Shown here piece after piece: positions 1,500-48,805 of a stretch of 64,000 nt of DNA. The notes under the pieces are model-generated. The model did no database searches and was not told where the DNA came from. It worked only from the letters and a program-made list of their open reading frames with translations. Numbering within the stretch: the first letter of the stretch is position 1; each line of letters begins with the position of its first letter. The stretch comes from Candidatus Altarchaeales archaeon (GTDB lineage: Archaea > Altiarchaeota > Altiarchaeia > IMC4 > SCGC-AAA252-I15). Where the stretch lies: positions 194,137-258,136 of the forward strand of contig WJMO01000006.1 in NCBI GenBank assembly GCA_014727915.1, in the 5' to 3' direction. The position numbers and the translations under genes were made by a program.

Positions 1500-1955
1500 T
1501 CATATTAAACCCCACACCATAACAATTGGAATAAAAATCAAACATGAATAGAAAATCAACAAAATAGATAAGAGAATTATTTTATAGTTAGGTGAGTGAT
1601 TAAATCTTTTTTCAAACAAGTATAGCATTCCTAAGAAAATAGGAGTGTAAAAAATACCATTAATGCCTACAGTAAGCATTGACAAAATAATAAAAAGATA
1701 TACTCCAAGTAAAGAGAGTGTATTCAGTATTTCATTATTGGTATTAGAGATGGCATTTAACACTGGATCGAAAAAAGTCATTATATGACCAAATAGTTCA
1801 AAAAAAAGACTAATTACAAGCCCATATTGAAAAACTAAAATGAGAATGAAGATTGTTTGAGATACTAGTAAAATTATAAAAAAGAGGATAGATGTTAAAT
1901 GTCTCAACCAGTTTTCTTTTATATCCTTTTGTATAGTGGCTAGTGTCTTGTTCAT
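1500..1955 (-). CDS. Small multi-pass membrane protein, hypothetical
   Basis: 151 aa, several hydrophobic segments; ATG overlaps the stop of the upstream gene (ATGA). Confidence 0.6.
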   Translation of the reverse strand: MNKTLATIQKDIKENWLRHLTSILFFIILLVSQTIFILILVFQYGLVISLFFELFGHIMTFFDPVLNAISNTNNEILNTLSLLGVYLFIILSMLTVGINGIFYTPIFLGMLYLFEKRFNHSPNYKIILLSILLIFYSCLIFIPIVMVWGLI

Positions 1956-3661
1956 CTTATTCTAAAAAATATTATGTTTGCGTTTTTTGCGACTAGGTCT
2001 GGGTTTCCTTGTTGGCAGCCGCTTGGGTCATTGCATACGTATCCGGGGTCGCATTCTATGATGTTTCCGAATGTGCCTGATGTGCATTGTTTGTATGCTG
2101 TGGTGTTGTAGCAGTGTTTGTCTCCTTCGTTGTATATTGTGCTGTCGTGTACGCATTTGTCTTCTTCATCGCAGAAGTATCCTATCCCGTCGTATTCATC
2201 TAGCACGCATTCTTCGTAGTCGTGGGGGCAGGCTTCCTCGTCGTCGTTGTCTGCTGTTACGTTTTCACATGGGTCTCCGTAGTCTAGGTCTCCTTCGCAC
2301 ATGTATGTGATGTTGCAGAATTCGTCTGCGAAACAGTTTCCTGTCGAGGACGTGCAGTTTATGGCGTATTCTATGAACAATTGTGTCCCGCCTTTGTTGA
2401 TGCCATAATAGTAATCATGGTCGTTTTGGCCTGGTTGCTCGTCCTGAGGCAATTCAGGGGCTATGTCTGTCTTGAAGGCTAGGTATTCGTCTCCGTTTAA
2501 TGCGTCTTGAAATATGTCTGTTATGTCGAGTGTTTGGCTTCCCTGCTCTGAGCATGTGTCCTCGTACATGAGGGTGACGAGGCTTGAACTGGTATTGACA
2601 TCTGCGTTGTTTGAGCAGTCTGGCGTTTCTGTGAATGAGTTGACTCGGAATAGCTGGATATTGTATCCAGAGGGCATGTATTCTTCTCCTACGCATGAGC
2701 CATAGTAGTGTAGTGTGGCGTGGTGTGCTGTTTTCCAGTTAAGGTGTGAGACGTTGAATCTGAATAGTGGCTTTGAGACTCCTTCGTATGCGCTTCCCCA
2801 GCAGAAGGGTTGTGTTTTGAATTGTATGTAGTCTGGCTCTTCAAAGATGTCCTCGCATGCGTTCGTGTTCGTGCTGCAATTGTTCAGGTTCTGCCATTTG
2901 AAATAGTTTTCATCGCCGCCAATCTTGACTGTTGGATCTATCTCTATTGGATACTGGGCCTCGTTAAGCAGTTTATATGGTATTTCTAGGCTTAATTTTA
3001 TCTTTTCTTTTTCTTTTGTGAGCCGGTAAACTAGAGGTTCAATCTTTCCAGTGTTGTCTTCGATTGTAGGTGCCTCTATCAAAAATACTGTCGGGTCTTG
3101 GTAGATAATCCCCTGTTTTGTCTTTAGCTTGAATGGAATGTCTTTGTTGGTGGTTATTTCGTTGCCCATCCATTTTTTCCCTTCAACGTATATGTCAGTG
3201 TCTTCAGAGTATATCAAAGTGAAGTCGATGCTTACCGTGGAAGACGACAAGGAGGGTATGCTGTTTTTTTCATCGATGATTATCTTTTCCTTGACTTTAT
3301 TTGGCAGCATCTGGTATTCCATGTCGATTCCTTTTCCGAAGACATCATAGTATGTGACCTGTTCGGAGTCTGTAAAGTATGGGTTGAATGAAGGGGATGT
3401 TCTTTCGAGAGTATTCAATGAGTCTGGCTTGAATTGAAGATTGCTATTGCCAACAGATACTTGCATGCCCCTGTCTTCGGGGCTTGATTTGAAGATTATA
3501 TTGTAGGTGTTTGTATTCATGCCATAGTCTGTTTCAATCCTCATGCCCTCATAGCTAGGCGTGATATCGGGTTCAGGGGAGGGGGCACCAAAGACCGTAG
3601 AAACAGAGAGAATAAGAAAGGTGCAAAGAATCCACGATACACATTCTCGCTTAAATCGCAT
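1952..3661 (-). CDS. Secreted Cys-rich surface protein; C-terminus may be a truncated CARDB-like domain
   Basis: Signal peptide (WILCTFLILSVSTVFGAP), PIEIDPTV motif, Cys-rich C-terminal third, ends ...CQQGNPDLVAKNANIIFFRIR. Confidence 0.75.
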   Translation of the reverse strand: MRFKRECVSWILCTFLILSVSTVFGAPSPEPDITPSYEGMRIETDYGMNTNTYNIIFKSSPEDRGMQVSVGNSNLQFKPDSLNTLERTSPSFNPYFTDSEQVTYYDVFGKGIDMEYQMLPNKVKEKIIIDEKNSIPSLSSSTVSIDFTLIYSEDTDIYVEGKKWMGNEITTNKDIPFKLKTKQGIIYQDPTVFLIEAPTIEDNTGKIEPLVYRLTKEKEKIKLSLEIPYKLLNEAQYPIEIDPTVKIGGDENYFKWQNLNNCSTNTNACEDIFEEPDYIQFKTQPFCWGSAYEGVSKPLFRFNVSHLNWKTAHHATLHYYGSCVGEEYMPSGYNIQLFRVNSFTETPDCSNNADVNTSSSLVTLMYEDTCSEQGSQTLDITDIFQDALNGDEYLAFKTDIAPELPQDEQPGQNDHDYYYGINKGGTQLFIEYAINCTSSTGNCFADEFCNITYMCEGDLDYGDPCENVTADNDDEEACPHDYEECVLDEYDGIGYFCDEEDKCVHDSTIYNEGDKHCYNTTAYKQCTSGTFGNIIECDPGYVCNDPSGCQQGNPDLVAKNANIIFFRIR

Positions 3662-3743: not shown

Positions 3744-5816
3744 TTAGGTTATCATACTGATCACTTTTTTGATTATTTTTTCTGCCGCTGGAGGTATTAT
3801 TCTTTTGGGTGTTTTTTGGAGGCATTCTTTTGACATTGTGGTGTTTGTTATCTTATGACATAGTACTCTATCTTTTTTATGTAATGCATTGTCCCAGTAG
3901 CATACGTTCCTGTTCCATTCGCCGTTGATTTTTTCGCATAGGGTGTGGTTTCGGAGTTCACGGCTTGTTTCCAGGTAACACCAGTCATTGTCTATTTCTG
4001 TTTGCTTAATCTTGTCGCATAATGAGTAGTTATTGTTTTTTATGGCGACGTTTCGGTAGCATTGGTCTTTTTCGCTTTGTTTTGCCATCTCATCGCATAT
4101 TGTGATGTTGTTTGTTTTTTCGGCTATTTTTGTCTTGCACCCGAACCTCCAGTTTGGCGGTTCCATGTTTGCACATATTGTGATGTTGGTTGTTCTTTCA
4201 GCAATATCTGATAAGCAACCGACCTTTGAGAAGGCATTTTTACATATGTCTGGATTGTTTGTCTTTTTAGAAATTTCCAATAAGCAATCGTTTCGTATTG
4301 ATACGTTGAAAATATCAAAGCATATTGTGTGATTGTTATTCTCTATCGCTATCCTTTTAATGCACCGATCTGTCTTGTCTTTGGTGGTTGCTATCCTGCA
4401 TTGAGTTATGTTTTTTGTTCTTTCGGCCTGCCAGTCAAAGCATGATCTCACAATATCCACATTGTCTATTTCATGGCAGTCGAGTGTGCGGTTCAGCCAT
4501 TCTTGTATTTTGCTGTAACACCATGTCGCATCATTTTCTTCAGTTATGTACTCGCAGGTTTTGCTGTTGTTTAATGATATCACTATCCGTTCATAGCAGT
4601 ATTCCCTGTCCCATCGGTGGCTTATATTCTGGCACAAGGTTATGTTGTTTGAGTTCACGCTAACGTCCTCGTAGCATTGACTCCTGTCATACCTGTCCTT
4701 GACTTTGTCGCATAGGCTGCTTTCGTTTAGGTTTTTTGCAAGTCCAGAATAGCAGGAGTCTACTTCCTCTTGCTCCACTATTAGGGTGCATAAACTAGTG
4801 TTTAACAGGTTGTATGCTGCATAATTGAAGCACCAGTCCCTGGTTTCAGTGTATGTGGGTTTGTTGCAGAGGTCAAGGTCTTTGAATCCATCATGAAGAA
4901 TAAAGTAACCATAGCAACTGTTTCTTGTTCTATTGTCTAGGACTATCCTATCACATAATGACGAGTTTTTCGTAATTCTTGCGAGAGTGTCATAGCACCT
5001 AAACCCAGCCAATTCAATGTCTTGTATTTTGTTGCAGAGAATTGAGTTGTTTGTTAACCTGGCGTAGCATATGCTGCTGTAGTCGTTATCTCTGATTTTT
5101 TCGCAGAGTGAGAGATTATTGGCTTCGATGGCAGGGAGGAGATAACACATTCCTTGTATGCTGGAATTCTCGATCTTGTCGCAGATCGTGGTATTTTTTG
5201 GATAGTGGGAGTACAGGTAGCACCTGTCCCGTTTATTGTTGTCTAATATCTCGTCGCATATGACGTATGTTCTTTTTTGGCTGCAATATCTGATGTAGCA
5301 TTCATCCCGTTCAGCATGCTCGTTTATGTTGTTGCATATTCTGACATCATTTGTGTTCACTGCTATATGGGAAATGCAGTTATTTTTTGACGTATTAAGG
5401 TAGTCGTTTTCGATGATTGTCCAGTTGGGCAGTTGCTTGCATAGGCCGATGTTGTTTGTCTTGTGTGCAATACCTTCTATACAATAGTCCTTTATTTCCT
5501 GGTTTTCAATAAGTGTGCACATGGACGAATCATTAAGTTCCTGTGCAACATGCCGGATACAATATCCTCTCTTCCCGGAATCACTTACTTCCATGCATTT
5601 GCGCAAGCTTAAATCCTTTTTGCCCTCCTTGTAAAAGCATGCATCTCTCAGTTCTTCATGGGGTGTTACCCAACAGTATGATAAGCGGACTGTTAACTCC
5701 CTGGAAACGGTAGGTATCAGCCAGAGAATGCTGAATATCAGGACAGCCAATATTATCGATACTTGAATCCAGAGCTTCCAGCCCTTCATGCATTTGATTA
5801 TTCGGCTATTTTTCAT
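3744..5816 (-). CDS. Membrane-anchored Cys-pair repeat protein (~23 repeats of ~26 aa)
   Basis: N-terminal TM segment then repeats such as AEKTNNITICDEMAKQSEKDQCYRNV / AIKNNNYSLCDKIKQTEIDNDWCYLET. Confidence 0.9.
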   Translation of the reverse strand: MKNSRIIKCMKGWKLWIQVSIILAVLIFSILWLIPTVSRELTVRLSYCWVTPHEELRDACFYKEGKKDLSLRKCMEVSDSGKRGYCIRHVAQELNDSSMCTLIENQEIKDYCIEGIAHKTNNIGLCKQLPNWTIIENDYLNTSKNNCISHIAVNTNDVRICNNINEHAERDECYIRYCSQKRTYVICDEILDNNKRDRCYLYSHYPKNTTICDKIENSSIQGMCYLLPAIEANNLSLCEKIRDNDYSSICYARLTNNSILCNKIQDIELAGFRCYDTLARITKNSSLCDRIVLDNRTRNSCYGYFILHDGFKDLDLCNKPTYTETRDWCFNYAAYNLLNTSLCTLIVEQEEVDSCYSGLAKNLNESSLCDKVKDRYDRSQCYEDVSVNSNNITLCQNISHRWDREYCYERIVISLNNSKTCEYITEENDATWCYSKIQEWLNRTLDCHEIDNVDIVRSCFDWQAERTKNITQCRIATTKDKTDRCIKRIAIENNNHTICFDIFNVSIRNDCLLEISKKTNNPDICKNAFSKVGCLSDIAERTTNITICANMEPPNWRFGCKTKIAEKTNNITICDEMAKQSEKDQCYRNVAIKNNNYSLCDKIKQTEIDNDWCYLETSRELRNHTLCEKINGEWNRNVCYWDNALHKKDRVLCHKITNTTMSKECLQKTPKRIIPPAAEKIIKKVISMIT

Positions 5817-6017: not shown

Positions 6018-7620
6018 TTATTGTTTTGGGCGTGATTCATCCTCTGTTTGTTGTCCTGGGCTTGATTCATCCCCTGTTGTGAAGTATGATTTTATCTTTT
6101 CTGTGACTCTTATGCGGGTGATTGTTTCTCCGTATGGTTCGTATTGTGGGCTGTTTTCGTAGTTTGTGAGTATGAAGAACCATCCGTCGTATTTTTGGAG
6201 TACGCTGTGTTTCAAGTCCAATTGTTTCTTGGTTTTGGCTGATTTGTCGGTTTCTATTTCTACAGCGATTTTTTCCCCTTCTTCTGTTGTGAAGACTATG
6301 TCCGGTTCTTTAGTCAGATTCTCGACGTATGTGGCGTTGTATTTTTGGAGTTCTTCGCAGATGAGGTATCGCAGTATGAAGTGTTCGTCGGATTCGACTG
6401 TCGTATTTTGCACGAGGTAGACAGATCCGCGGCCTCTGACGAATCCTGGGTCTCGGACTTCCTTGAAGCCTTCCCTGTGGAGGATGTCTATCTGGCCCGT
6501 GTCCAGGTCGGTTTTCAGGTGCACTTTGTTGTCTATGTCGAATCGCTTCTTGGGTGACGCAGGGATTTCTTCTTGGGGTTTCTCCTCTGGCTTGTTTTTC
6601 CTTTCCAGGCGCACGAGGTCTGCGGGCTTGGTTGTGACGAACTCGTATTCCCGAGGCGATGCTATGACTTTGAGGGGTATGTGGTTGTTGTAGGCCATTA
6701 GCAGGCCTTCGCCTGGCTGGGCGTTCATCAGTAGCATGGTTTCCCCGTAGTTGAGCTTGAAAGTCCGTGTTATGCTGTCTATTACTGACGGGTCTTGCCG
6801 TAGCAGCAGTTTCCATGCTGTGTTTGCGAGGACTGATTTCCCGGCACCGCTTGAGAGGAGGTCGTTGACTTCCTGGGTTATGATGATGAAGCTCAGGTTG
6901 TATTTCCTGCTGGTCTTGACTATCTCGAATATGCGTTCTGCTGCCTGAGGGTATTGGAGAAGCAGCCAGGCCTCGTCGATGACGAAGACTTTCCGTTTCA
7001 TGTTGTCTTTCATCTTGTGCAGTATATATTCTAATATAGTGTACATCATGGCCGGCTTGGCGAGCTTCGGGACTTGGCTTACATCGAATGTGACCATGCG
7101 GTTGTCGAAGTCAAGCACTGTCTGCTTGTTGAGGAATTTCAGCGAGCCTTCTGTGAACATCCTCAGCCGGTTGGTCAATGCCATTGCCGAGGTTCTTGTG
7201 AAGTGGTTTTCATCTGACTCTTTGGCTTTTATGGCTGAGTAGAGTTCACTGAATGTGGGTGGTGTGTTTTTCCATGTGCTTTTTTCCTCGGTGATTCCCG
7301 CATCATAGTAGATTTTTCTGAATGCATCGTCCAGGAGAGCCCGCTGTGACGGCGAGATGTCCTCGATTATCGTGAACATCAGAGAGTGCAGTGACGCTAT
7401 CTTGTCTGCATAGTCCATCCCCATCATGTCAAACGGGTTGATGACAGTGTCCGAGTCCTTGGATATCTTTATCGCCTGCCCCTTGTAGGCTTCCGTCAGC
7501 TTCGTGTATTCGCCCTGGGGATCGAGGTTGATTACGTTCGCATCCATCAGAAGCTGCCGTATCTCGAAGACTTTGACAAAGAAGCTCTTGCCAGCCCCCG
7601 AGGTCGATGAAGCCCTTGGA
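6018..7620 (-). CDS. VirB4/TraC-like conjugation-type ATPase, N-terminally truncated, with C-terminal nuclease-like region
   Basis: Walker A TSGAGKSFFVK, Walker B KVFVIDEAWLLL, FIIITQE; the annotated N-terminal ~65 aa reads through a tRNA antisense region and is unlikely to be protein. C-terminal EPDIVFTTEEGEKIAVEIETDKS. Confidence 0.75.
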
Positions 7621-7769
7621 GCGATAGAAAAGGAAGAGAAGGAAGCCAGTAAATTCTTCGTGCAGTTATTCAAGAACACGCAGTTCAGAAGTTGGCTAGA
7701 GAAGACGTTCACAGCCCCGAGGATTGAGGCGGGATTGAGTTTGCCCTTTTTTTCGGTTGTCGGTTTCGA

Positions 7770-7843
7770 AGCCCCAGGAGGGATTTGAACCCTCGACATG
7801 CAGATTACAAGTCTGCCGCTCTACCAGTCTGAGCCACTGAGGC
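7770..7843 (-). tRNA. tRNA-Thr(UGU), no intron
   Basis: Minus strand GCCTCAG TG GCTC..GAGC G GCAGA CTTGTAA TCTGC ATGTC GAGGG TTCAAAT CCCTC CTGGGGC T; cloverleaf closes, discriminator U. Confidence 0.93.
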
Positions 7844-7928
7844 GTGTGTTTTTTTATTGTTTTTCTCCTTAATGTGCGTGGCACCGTATGGTGGCACCCG
7901 CGGAGCGTGTGCACGGAGCTAGCCGTGT

Positions 7929-7957
7929 AGTCTGAGCCACTGAGGCGTGTGTTTTTT
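7929..7957 (-). repeat. 29-bp copy of the 5' end of tRNA-Thr plus flank (copy of 7826-7854)
   Basis: agtctgagccactgaggcgtgtgtttttt is identical at both sites, offset 103 bp. Confidence 0.95.
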
Positions 7958-8049
7958 GGATGTCTAATATTTAGGGTGATTTTGGAATATAAGTGCTATT
8001 TTGGTTTTTACGGTTTTTTGGTAGGGTTTTGGGTGTCCTTGCCCCAGTA

Positions 8050-10521: not shown

Positions 10522-13479
10522 TTATACTACGACTTCTTTGGTTATCCAGACTCTTAGGCTGTTGCTGTCTATGTCTATGACGCCGAATTTGACCTCCCAG
10601 TATTCGGCGTTCTCCCAGAAGCTGACTTTGAACCTCTGGCTCTTGTCGTAGGGGTCCCATATGCGCACCCATGCGCCGTTGTAGCACTGGCGGTCCCAGA
10701 CTATGCGGTCGAGTTTCAGCTTGAAAGACTGGTATTCTATTACATCCGTTGCGGTGAGGTTGAGTATGTCGTATTGTGGGGGCTTGGATGCGCAGGTCTT
10801 GCAGGGTCCGCCGCAGTCTATGCCGAGTTCTCCCTGGTTCTGGATGCAGTCGTAGCAGTTGCCCTGCCCTGGCAGGCCTCCCATGCAGTCGTCCTGTCCT
10901 TCGATGCACACCTCCCACTGGTCGCATACCTCGATAACCTCCACGGTATCCTTTACAGTGCAGTTGGCGGTGTACTCCCCCGGGTTCTCGCATATGTTCC
11001 GGGTGCAGTTCAGGGAGGGGTTGTTGGCGTGGTTGCAGTATGGTGCGCCGCACACGTCCACGCCGCAGTCCTCGTTCACCAGGCACATTGTGTCGTTTTC
11101 GTCGCATGGGGGGCAGGGTCCGCCGCAGTCCATCCACACCTCCCCCCTCTCATAGTCCCTAACGTCGTTTCGGCAGTGGTCTGGGTAGCATTCTCCAGCG
11201 TAGCAGTATTCGCTGTCCTCGCATGTTTTCACGAGGCGTGGGTTTACGGCCACTGACTTGCAGTATGAGTCGGGAGTGCCGGGGTGTATGCAGGTGAACT
11301 TGACGTCTGGTGTTTTGACGAACCGGTCGTCGCAGAATGGCCGGTATGGTATGGGCTCCTCGCACATGCTGGTGTTGTAGCATCTGACCTCCAATGTGGT
11401 GGTCGTGGTCGGGTTGGTGGGCAATGTCAGGGGCGGGAGGGTCGACTGGGTTGTCACTGTGGGTTTCAGCGTGGTTGTGGTCGGGCACATGCTCCTCTCC
11501 ATGACCCATTTGCCGTCGTAGCACTGGTATAGGACTGCGGGCTTTGTGAATGACGCGAGTGCAGAGCTGACGTGGCCTTCCACGTAGGGGTACGCGAATA
11601 GTATGACCACCCCCCCGACCGCGATGAGTATGATGAAAACTACGCCTGCCATTACGAGCTTCATAACAGGGGATTTTCCCCCGGGTTCTGTTTCTTCCGC
11701 AGGGGAGGGGAAGTCTTCCTTGTCTTTCTCGGTCTCCTCCAACGGTTCTAGGGTTGGCTTGGTTTTCTTCTTTTTCCCGAAGAACTGCTCCCTCAGGCCG
11801 CCCTCCTTCTTCGGTTTTGGCTGGGTGGGTGATTGCTCGCCCCCTGCAGGCGACCAGGTTATCTCCGATCCGCCAGCGGGTTCCCCCCCGGGAGGGCTTG
11901 TTCGGCCACCGGGCTTGGAGGGGGTTCCATCCGCTGTCCTGGGAGGGGATGGCTCTTCTTTGGATGTTCCGGCATCAGCAGCATCCGACTCCCCTGTGGG
12001 GGGTGCCTTTGCCTGGGTGGTGGGAGCATGAGCTGGGGGGATGGGAGTCGGTGGAGTGGGAGGAACTGCAGATTTTGCAGCCGGTGAAGGAGCCGGCGGT
12101 CTCTCCGGTGATTGGGCAACTGGGGGCTTACCAGCAGGCGAGGATTCAATAGGCTGCTTTTCAGGGGGGTATGGTGTGGCTGGCTTGAAGGTGGGGGGCT
12201 TTTGGATGTTGTCTGGCTTCACGCCTCGCATGTGAGGCGCTGTCATGTCTGTGGGGGAGGTTGATGACGGGCCTGCAGTAGTAGGGGTGGATGGGGTTTT
12301 TGTGGGCGTTGTGGCGGGCCTTGGAGGTGTAGCAGGCTGCTGTTCCTGAACGGGTACAGGAGTCCTAGCGGCAGGCGAAGGCGGTGGTTGCCTTTCAGAG
12401 GAGGGAGGAGTAACCGGTTGGGGTGTTTTCTGAACCTGGGGTTGCGGTGGTGTAACAGGTTTTTGAGTTTGAGCCTGGGTTGATGGCGGCACATCGGTTT
12501 TTTGGAGTGTAGGCTGGGGACGAGCAGATTCAGAGGGCTTTTGAACTGGAGGAGTTGGAGGCCTGGCAGGAGGTGACTGTGGCTTTTCAGGGGTGGAATC
12601 CGAAGTTCCGGGGGTTTTAGGTGTTTGAGGGGGTGTACTTTCTGGTGTTCTGAATCCGGGGGGTTGATATGTTTCGGGAACGGGGTTGGGCTTTGTTTTT
12701 TCAGCTGTCCCTGCCGGAGGCTGGGCGGTAGTTGAGGGTTTATCAGGGGCTGCTGGCGCAGTCTGCTTAGCAGCCGGTGAAGTGGGTGCGGGCGGCTTCT
12801 GAGCCTCTGGCGTTTGAGTAGCAGGCTGCCTGGCCGGCGTCTGCGGTGCCTTGGCTGTTGTTTTAGGCTCTTCACGGCGGGGAAACCCCGGCCTTGAAGG
12901 CTTAGATAGGGGCGTCTCAGCTTGTTTCTGAACCGGGGAGACAGGTTCTAACCCGGCAGTCTTCTGAGCCGGCGAGGCTGGAGGCCTGGCAGGGGGCGTA
13001 GTAGACCTGGCAGATGTGGGTTGATCTGGCTCTTCTTGAGTAGACGAGGGCGGAACCGGCTTCTCAGGCACTGTAGGAGTCTGAGGCTTAGCGGCTGGTG
13101 AGGTAGTAGCTGTTACTGGAGGCTTCTGAGCCTGAGGTTGTGTGGGCGCTGCCGGTTTTTGAGTTTGAGTTCCGGGCGGGGTGGGAGTAGGTGGTTGGAC
13201 CGGCTTCTGAGCTGGGGGAGTAGCAGGAGCCGAAGGCACAGTCGGCTTCTGAACTGGAGGAGCAGAGGGACTAGCGGGTGCAGAGGGCGAAGGTGGTTTC
13301 TGGGCTTGCGGAGCGGGGGTAGAGGGTGTTTTTTCCGGGGTTGTGGGTGTTGGGTGATCGGTCTTCTCCGCCTCGGCATCCTGTTGGATCTTATGGCGCT
13401 CCCGTTCTTTTCTCAGTTCCTCCTTAAGCTTGTCGAGTTCGGCCTGGTCTATGTCTTCAGAGCCATCGTCATCGGGCAT
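10522..13479 (-). CDS. Pro-rich (QKP-repeat) N-terminal region, single TM helix, Cys-rich C-terminal domain
   Basis: ~550 aa Pro/Gln/Lys/Thr low complexity, TM VMKLVMAGVVFIILIAVGGVVILFAYPYV, then two DCGGPC..C motifs. Start set at MPDDDGSED. Confidence 0.8.
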   Translation of the reverse strand: MPDDDGSEDIDQAELDKLKEELRKERERHKIQQDAEAEKTDHPTPTTPEKTPSTPAPQAQKPPSPSAPASPSAPPVQKPTVPSAPATPPAQKPVQPPTPTPPGTQTQKPAAPTQPQAQKPPVTATTSPAAKPQTPTVPEKPVPPSSTQEEPDQPTSARSTTPPARPPASPAQKTAGLEPVSPVQKQAETPLSKPSRPGFPRREEPKTTAKAPQTPARQPATQTPEAQKPPAPTSPAAKQTAPAAPDKPSTTAQPPAGTAEKTKPNPVPETYQPPGFRTPESTPPQTPKTPGTSDSTPEKPQSPPARPPTPPVQKPSESARPQPTLQKTDVPPSTQAQTQKPVTPPQPQVQKTPQPVTPPSSERQPPPSPAARTPVPVQEQQPATPPRPATTPTKTPSTPTTAGPSSTSPTDMTAPHMRGVKPDNIQKPPTFKPATPYPPEKQPIESSPAGKPPVAQSPERPPAPSPAAKSAVPPTPPTPIPPAHAPTTQAKAPPTGESDAADAGTSKEEPSPPRTADGTPSKPGGRTSPPGGEPAGGSEITWSPAGGEQSPTQPKPKKEGGLREQFFGKKKKTKPTLEPLEETEKDKEDFPSPAEETEPGGKSPVMKLVMAGVVFIILIAVGGVVILFAYPYVEGHVSSALASFTKPAVLYQCYDGKWVMERSMCPTTTTLKPTVTTQSTLPPLTLPTNPTTTTTLEVRCYNTSMCEEPIPYRPFCDDRFVKTPDVKFTCIHPGTPDSYCKSVAVNPRLVKTCEDSEYCYAGECYPDHCRNDVRDYERGEVWMDCGGPCPPCDENDTMCLVNEDCGVDVCGAPYCNHANNPSLNCTRNICENPGEYTANCTVKDTVEVIEVCDQWEVCIEGQDDCMGGLPGQGNCYDCIQNQGELGIDCGGPCKTCASKPPQYDILNLTATDVIEYQSFKLKLDRIVWDRQCYNGAWVRIWDPYDKSQRFKVSFWENAEYWEVKFGVIDIDSNSLRVWITKEVVV

Positions 13480-13539
13480 GGTAAACAATGAGAATAAAAA
13501 CTAAAAAGCCGTTTTAACAGCATGGTTTGAATACATACC

Positions 13540-29328: not shown

Positions 29329-30351
29329 TTATGCTATTTTTTTGAGCCCATCCTCGATCAACTCCTGGAATTGGATGTAATCCTTGTCGCCTTCTAGGGG
29401 TTTTCCGTTTATGAAGAACTGGGGTGTGCCGCTTACTCCCACGTTTGAGCCGTCAGCGATGTCTGCCATCACTTCCTCAGTGTTTTCTCCGGAGTCGAGG
29501 CATTGGTTGAATTCTCCCATGTCCAATCCTATGTCGCGGGCGTATTTTCTCAGGGAGTTCACGCCGAGTTCCTGCTGGTTCTGGAAGAGGAGGTCGTGGT
29601 ATTCCCAGAACATGCCCTGGTCGTCGGCGCACTCGGCAGCCTCCGCAGCCTTCATTGCGTGATCGTGTTTGCTCAGCGGGAAGTCGCGGAACACCAGCCT
29701 GGCTTTCCCGGTGTCAATGTATTCTTCCTTCAACTTCGAGAGGGTGTCCTGGGCGAATCTCCCGCAGAAGGGGCATTCGAACTCGGAGAATGCGATTATG
29801 GTGACGGGAGCGCCGGGGTCTCCGAGGACGGGGTCGTCGTCCTCGCCCGGCGGCTCTATGAACCTGCCCACCTTGGACGCGGAGGGGTTTATGACATACC
29901 TGCCGCCCACCTTAACCAGGAGGCTGCGGGCGTTGCTGAACTCCCCCGCACCTTCTACGCTGGCGTTGAAGATGTACGCGGGCAGGGTGTTGAGACCCAA
30001 CTCTGACAGCAGCCGCTTACCCCTCTCGGATGAGATGTCAACCTCCTCGACTTCGACCGTGGGGAATATCTTGGTTTGGGTGGTCTGGACTATCTCCCTC
30101 GTATCGCACGCACTGCAGGTCCGGTCGTTCAACACGATCATGAGTATGGGCGGGTCACCCACTACTGGAAGTGGAGGCTGTGTGGTGGTGGCCGCCCCAG
30201 CCAATGTGGTTGAGGTCACAAAATTGTTGGGGCTTTCACTGGTTTGAAGTAGCAGATAGAGGACTATGAAGAACACCAGGACTCCGCCGAGCCACCGAAG
30301 CCTCCCAGGGTCAAAGGTGAACCTGACCTCAACATCTCTTTTAGAGGGCAT
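29329..30351 (-). CDS. Membrane-anchored DsbA-family protein with additional N-terminal thioredoxin-like domain
   Basis: TM, then CSAC domain (RTCSACDTREIVQ) and DsbA domain (SEFECPFCGRFAQ...VSGTPQFFINGK). Confidence 0.88.
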   Translation of the reverse strand: MPSKRDVEVRFTFDPGRLRWLGGVLVFFIVLYLLLQTSESPNNFVTSTTLAGAATTTQPPLPVVGDPPILMIVLNDRTCSACDTREIVQTTQTKIFPTVEVEEVDISSERGKRLLSELGLNTLPAYIFNASVEGAGEFSNARSLLVKVGGRYVINPSASKVGRFIEPPGEDDDPVLGDPGAPVTIIAFSEFECPFCGRFAQDTLSKLKEEYIDTGKARLVFRDFPLSKHDHAMKAAEAAECADDQGMFWEYHDLLFQNQQELGVNSLRKYARDIGLDMGEFNQCLDSGENTEEVMADIADGSNVGVSGTPQFFINGKPLEGDKDYIQFQELIEDGLKKIA

Positions 30352-48403: not shown

Positions 48404-48805
48404 ATGAACAAGTTGAGCCTATTAACAGCTGTCTTGGCTGTGTTTCTTTTCCTGGGATGCATCAGCGGACCAGAGCCGGTAGTGGTGACAACAACACAAC
48501 CCACAGGGGATACCATCAAGAAGCCGGTGACAACGACGTTGAACGAGGTCGTTAAAGACTACAGGAAAGCAGTATCCGAGTCTGACGTGAGTTCATGCGA
48601 CAGGATGGACAACCCCAGGCTTAAGGACATCTGCATAAGGGACATAGCAGTCAAAGAGGGTAAGGCCAGTCTATGCAGCAAGATTGAGACAGCCAACCTG
48701 AAAGACATATGCTACTACAAGATTGCGGTTAACAACAAGGACAACACCGTCTGCAACAGGATAAGCACGGAATTCATCAAGAAGTCCTGCATGGAAAAGA
48801 CATAA
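48404..48805 (+). CDS. Small lipoprotein with three Cys-pair repeats
   Basis: Lipobox FLFLGC; SSCDRMDNPRLKDICIRDIAVKEGKASLCSKIETANLKDICYYKIAVNNKDNTVCNRISTEFIKKSC. Confidence 0.85.
   Translation: MNKLSLLTAVLAVFLFLGCISGPEPVVVTTTQPTGDTIKKPVTTTLNEVVKDYRKAVSESDVSSCDRMDNPRLKDICIRDIAVKEGKASLCSKIETANLKDICYYKIAVNNKDNTVCNRISTEFIKKSCMEKT

Follow-up and report, generated by a model that had tools for sequence, protein, structure and literature searches.

The open reading frame described here lies in a stretch of 64,000 nucleotides from a Candidatus Altarchaeales genome (hereafter the window) and encodes a protein in which pairs of cysteines recur over almost the whole length, which raises the question of what kind of repeat this is, how the cysteines are paired and what the frequent N-x-S/T sequons among them signify. 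The frame was recovered exactly as it had been placed by the initial annotation (Table 1), and the transmembrane anchor assumed ahead of the repeats corresponds to a single N-terminal hydrophobic segment. The hydropathy of the 690-aa protein reaches its maximum of 2.6 at residue 19 and nowhere exceeds 1.4 past residue 60, while a helix comprising residues 5–49 spans the anchor region in the full-length AlphaFold2 (AF2) model. Since the hydropathy maximum falls within residues 15–38 and Lys/Arg residues stand ahead of it, the segment is likely to act as a signal anchor that leaves the repeats outside the cell.

Table 1. Coordinates of the repeat gene, its parts and two further genes in the window.
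Feature	Position	Strand	Details
ORF of the Cys-pair repeat protein	3744..5816	-	690 aa
N-terminal signal anchor	5706..5774	-	residues 15-37; preceded by basic residues; N-in/C-out expected
Array of 24 Cys-pair units with 23 sequons	3807..5687	-	residues ~44-670; C1 48...653; C2 60...665
Basic C-terminal helix	3750..3791	-	residues 676-689, within PPAAEKIIKKVISMIT; from sequence and AF2 helix 676-689
Short family member, lipoprotein	48404..48805	+	133 aa; LGC lipobox; 3 Cys-pair units
DsbA-like thiol oxidoreductase, membrane-anchored	29329..30351	-	CPFC; Thioredoxin_4, E 6.2e-41

Cysteine makes up 7.2% of the residues, and 48 of the 50 cysteines are accounted for by 24 pairs, here termed C1 and C2; those left over are C9, on the cytoplasmic side, and C178. 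C1 and C2 are 12 residues apart in 19 units and 13 in three, with single units at 9 and at 21, so that the spacing of about 11–13 proposed earlier is found as 12 or 13 in 22 of the 24 units. From each C2 the following C1 is usually 14 residues away, which sets the period at 26; the array itself was thus correctly recognized in the initial annotation, whereas its count of about 23 has to be corrected to 24. That the paired cysteines are the unit of the array is also evident from 57 family members, in which C1 and C2 alternate almost strictly (442 steps from C1 to C2 and 423 from C2 to C1, against 13 from C1 to C1 and 7 from C2 to C2).

The overall fold is predicted to be an alpha-solenoid, as had been suggested. 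A six-unit AF2 model, based on units of the 690-aa protein and 26 further rows, has a mean pLDDT of 87.1 and a pTM of 0.74, and the same alternation of short and long helices reappears in the all-helical full-length model (pLDDT 81, pTM 0.46), whose pTM is too low to fix the overall shape, the rod proposed initially being one possibility. In each unit, a helix of 6 residues with C1 as the fourth is followed by a short turn and a helix of 15 residues with C2 as the seventh. A Foldseek comparison of the six-unit model with solved structures in the PDB returned nothing at E 0.001 (TM below 0.4), and the full model retrieved mostly TPR-type and designed solenoids; as the TM-score of these matches stays below 0.2 despite a best E-value of 2e-5, the likeness to TPR proteins appears to be generic. 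A library of viral folds likewise gave no match at E 0.001.

Far from being confined to this protein, the repeat represents a widespread, multi-copy family. Its members share units of C1-x11-C2 with a period of 26 and the pattern [DN]-x-[ST]-[LI]-C-[DE]-K-I followed by [RK]-[DE]-x-C-Y-x-x-[VI]-A; a profile of 30 segments, each three units long (A1), matches the 690-aa protein with an E-value of 1.9e-20, one of its rows having been taken from that protein. The genome itself, at 1.81 Mb and a completeness of 91%, yields 18 tblastn matches to the repeat protein and 49 matches to the A1 profile in at least 14 ORFs; one short member lies in the window and the other genes are scattered through the genome. 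Most family members start with a lipobox or a transmembrane helix, the 690-aa protein being exported and membrane-anchored by the latter, and in two members from the same genome an arylsulfotransferase domain precedes the array. A further member from this genome (L016:650-2350) has a C-terminal domain with a weak match to archaeal flagellin (1.6e-5, below the cut-off).

Within the phylum Altiarchaeota, 25 of 29 genomes carry the repeat, often in many copies. Among 247 archaeal genomes 62 are positive at E 1e-6, and the 37 of these outside the phylum are mostly small, of DPANN size; in bacteria, the repeat is present in 11 of 142 genomes from the class of a Liptonbacteria genome. When 84,980 species were scanned for a motif, 21 loci emerged, which belong to Altiarchaeota, Diapherotrites, Nanohaloarchaeota, Woesearchaeota, Patescibacteria and Omnitrophota; absence from the remaining species is weak evidence owing to the narrowness of the motif. 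Several of these lineages have in common the near-identical unit AxAKQDPSICDKIQDQxxKDxCYxxV, and the consensus, nearly the same in the two domains, can be written as AKQDPSICDKIQDQ..KD.CY..V. A protein of Liptonbacteria (Patescibacteria; L057:2716-3942) consists of 14 near-identical units with zero sequons. Mollicutes were considered as a further host lineage and rejected: the two repeat proteins on the contig in question (L066) are those of a Paceibacterota contig (L065), and L066 is probably misbinned. In a member from Altiarchaeales A3 (L054:2038-3546), the reading frame is shifted over roughly two units of the array and yet remains open (VIKQQLHHKRTFVLRESQQQ...), while the array is intact in the homologue from Altarchaeum HURL (L055:1957-3483); the shift is a double frameshift or an assembly error. 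Overall, the 690-aa protein is a long, sequon-rich member of a real, well-conserved family.

Profile and sequence searches of Pfam, NCBIfam and the PDB gave no match of the repeat to a characterized family. The 690-aa protein has no Pfam match at E 1, S-layer and VirB10 domains included. Single-protein scans of genome contigs and viral contigs likewise gave no match to the repeat protein; 52 pattern matches to the conserved motif in viral contigs yielded no confirmed case, and neither plasmids nor a literature search by repeat motif strings returned the repeat. The family is therefore undescribed as far as Pfam, NCBIfam and the PDB go, although it possibly exists elsewhere as an automatic cluster or under an unpublished name. 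An exported module so common in a phylum is thus one that none of these resources covers.

Immediately downstream of the array gene (1952-3661, minus strand), a 569-aa secreted protein is encoded whose match to the DNRLRE domain is weak and whose tail is rich in Cys. At 10522-13488 (minus strand), a 988-aa protein without a Pfam match has an N-terminal half that is very long and rich in Pro/Thr/Lys, together with a transmembrane helix and a Cys-rich C-terminal half. A conjugation ATPase of the VirB4/TraC type (CD1110 family, 3e-58), truncated by its N-terminal half, is encoded at 6018-7960 and runs into a tRNA-Thr gene (7770-7843), and a second copy of the 5′ end of this tRNA with its upstream flank (ctgagccactgaggcgtgtgtttttt) is found at about 7932-7958; the truncated gene and the partial tRNA repeat look like a trace left by the integration of an element. 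A connection between the repeat protein and this ATPase, considered because CagY is a type IV secretion system protein, was rejected, as the family members are scattered and the ATPase gene is a fragment.

How the cysteines are connected can be judged from the ends of the arrays and from their loops. Of 20 isolated arrays 16 open with C1 and four with C2, one of the four being a lipobox Cys, and 36 of 37 close with C2, the sole exception ending in a masked stretch. Because arrays open with C1 and close with C2, a disulfide within the unit would leave no orphan Cys, and C1–C2 pairing, as the only simple scheme of which this is true, is likely the staple of each unit. Bonding of C2 to the C1 of the next unit, 14 residues on, would tie neighbours together as in the Helicobacter Hcp proteins, where successive repeats are joined (PMC3851747), and is compatible with both spacings being nearly constant; as it would create two orphans per array, we consider it improbable. 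Still less credible is that the pairs serve as metal ligands (zinc, Fe-S, metal uptake) or redox-active dithiols instead of structural disulfides. Two cysteines at fixed spacing in every unit could hold a metal between the helices, and neither DsbB nor VKOR was detected in the genome at its 91% completeness. However, each unit has only these two conserved Cys, neither His nor any other ligand is conserved, and the C1–C2 loop, unlike the C2–C1 step that is mostly constant at 14 in the 57 members, takes insertions and ranges from 5 to 45 residues. The array is, moreover, exported, and the genome encodes an exported DsbA-like protein. The latter, a CPFC protein whose gene is not linked to the repeat gene, is a candidate oxidant for the Cys pairs; a second Thioredoxin_4 match is located elsewhere in the genome.

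The sequons of the 690-aa protein are clearly in excess, with 23 observed against 8.6 ± 2.7 in 2000 composition-preserving shuffles, the maximum of which is 19. They were initially described as standing directly ahead of the first Cys in most units, and this holds for 16 of the 24 units (two thirds), where they lie 4–5 residues before C1; the other seven are located between C1 and C2, and none of the 23 lies between C2 and the cap that follows. The sequon Asn, as judged from AF2 and sequence, is the N-cap, which immediately precedes the short helix. In 356 units of other members this site is occupied by Asp in 44% and Asn in 26%, with Ser in 39% two residues on. As the cap is mostly Asp, the sequon appears to be an elaboration of a structural site and not a family-defining feature; the N-x-S/T motif is partly structural, and a sequon is one step away from the structural consensus.

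A purely structural origin, in which the short helix is capped by N or D, S/T is an ordinary early-helix residue and sequons arise by chance and carry no glycan, would agree with the preference for Asp and with the Ser already favoured two residues later, with the AF2 short helix starting right behind the Asn, and with bacterial arrays that keep the cap site and have hardly any sequons. The distribution of residues in archaea, however, makes this explanation rather unlikely. Within-protein permutation gives 70 archaeal N-cap sequons against 53.7 expected (p 0.0004) and 10 against 7.4 in the 690-aa protein (p 0.03), related units being treated as exchangeable; the permutation test on D is the complement of that on N and not an independent control. 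In bacterial members the relation is the reverse of that in archaea, [^P][ST] following the cap in 3 of 11 cases with N and 34 of 45 with D (p 0.004). The 690-aa protein is itself shifted towards N at the cap (13 N to 4 D, compared to 111 to 234; p 0.0003) and towards N-x-T among its cap sequons (6 of 10 compared to 11 of 70; p 0.005), and the seven sequons of the C1–C2 loop, set against none between C2 and the following cap, also speak against chance. Owing to the common descent of the units, all of these p values are optimistic. The co-occurrence of N and S/T above expectation therefore suggests that in archaea the cap sequon is more than structure. In line with an AglB N-glycoprotein, the sequons are on the predicted exported side and the genome encodes one AglB-type STT3 above the cut-off (79.6 bits) with a WWDYG motif. 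Where such an array would act is a separate matter. It could be an envelope spacer or a docking platform for proteins between the membrane and an outer layer instead of an outward-facing adhesin; members are anchored lipoproteins or transmembrane proteins, some fused to enzyme-like domains, and TPR-like solenoids mostly dock proteins, but no recurrent partner or envelope gene lies beside the members examined, and we hold this placement to be a real, if lesser, possibility. Gene context and partners of the family members contain nothing that points to adhesion.

The reading that we favour, and regard as probable, is that of an exported, disulfide-stapled and glycosylatable solenoid serving as a surface scaffold or adhesin, where the disulfides, the glycan occupancy and the role are inferred. 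The gene product would be an extracytoplasmic, membrane-anchored alpha-solenoid with units of a short C1 helix and a long C2 helix, in which exported thiol-oxidation machinery may form the C1–C2 bond; since the disulfide would lock each helix pair, the array is proposed to be stiff and protease-resistant. The cap Asn/Asp would hold an equivalent position in each unit and, in archaeal members and most strongly in the 690-aa protein, lie within a sequon that AglB could glycosylate, so that glycans would be lined up at regular intervals on a scaffold whose long face may bind partner cells or envelope components. Location and architecture make a surface scaffold or adhesin, stiff and glycosylated, the most likely identity of the 690-aa protein. 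For the family as a whole, the chances appear about even that it is a cross-domain modular surface scaffold of DPANN-type archaea and CPR bacteria, with disulfide-stapled helices of 6 and 15 residues, whose cap site some archaea have turned into an N-glycan ladder. The repeat-bearing lineages of the two domains are known for their tiny genomes and symbiotic life, which makes the repeat a candidate for cell–cell contact and inter-lineage gene exchange. The unit is simple, with a single Cys pair and a single cap in every 26 residues, and should lend itself to expression and testing; the swap of D for a sequon would allow a clean study of how a site with a structural role turns into one for glycosylation.

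Among known systems, generic helix-turn-helix superhelices are also formed by TPR proteins and other alpha-solenoids, of which many TPR proteins appear among the Foldseek matches of the full model; the repeat protein differs in being Cys-paired and exported, and the units do not follow the 34-residue TPR consensus, the 30 A1 segments matching neither a TPR nor a Sel1 profile in Pfam. The hami of Altiarchaea are surface structures from the same phylum, and their proteins resemble S-layer proteins (PMC4460559), whereas the repeat protein is built of all-helical Cys-pair units and matches no S-layer domain in Pfam. In repeat region 2 of Helicobacter CagY, a surface-associated protein, helical modules follow one another in long tandem arrays and their Cys are spaced regularly, but its repeats are 38–39 residues long, with a second motif, and belong to a VirB10-like protein (PMC2581425); with a period of 26 and no Pfam domain, the array resembles it by description as tandem helical modules with regular Cys, and no homology is claimed. 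A parallel in architecture is offered by the Sel1-like HcpB and HcpC of Helicobacter, exported alpha/alpha solenoids with a single disulfide at each repeat step; for the repeat protein such a helical fold is predicted by AF2 and a disulfide in each unit is proposed. Sel1 repeats are 36–38 residues long and the Hcp disulfides bridge successive repeats, running from the end of the first to the start of the second (PMC3851747), in contrast to the period of 26, the helices of 6 and 15 residues and the probable C1–C2 pairing of the present family. Disulfide-stapled exported solenoids are thus already known as a kind from Hcp, to which CagY may be compared.
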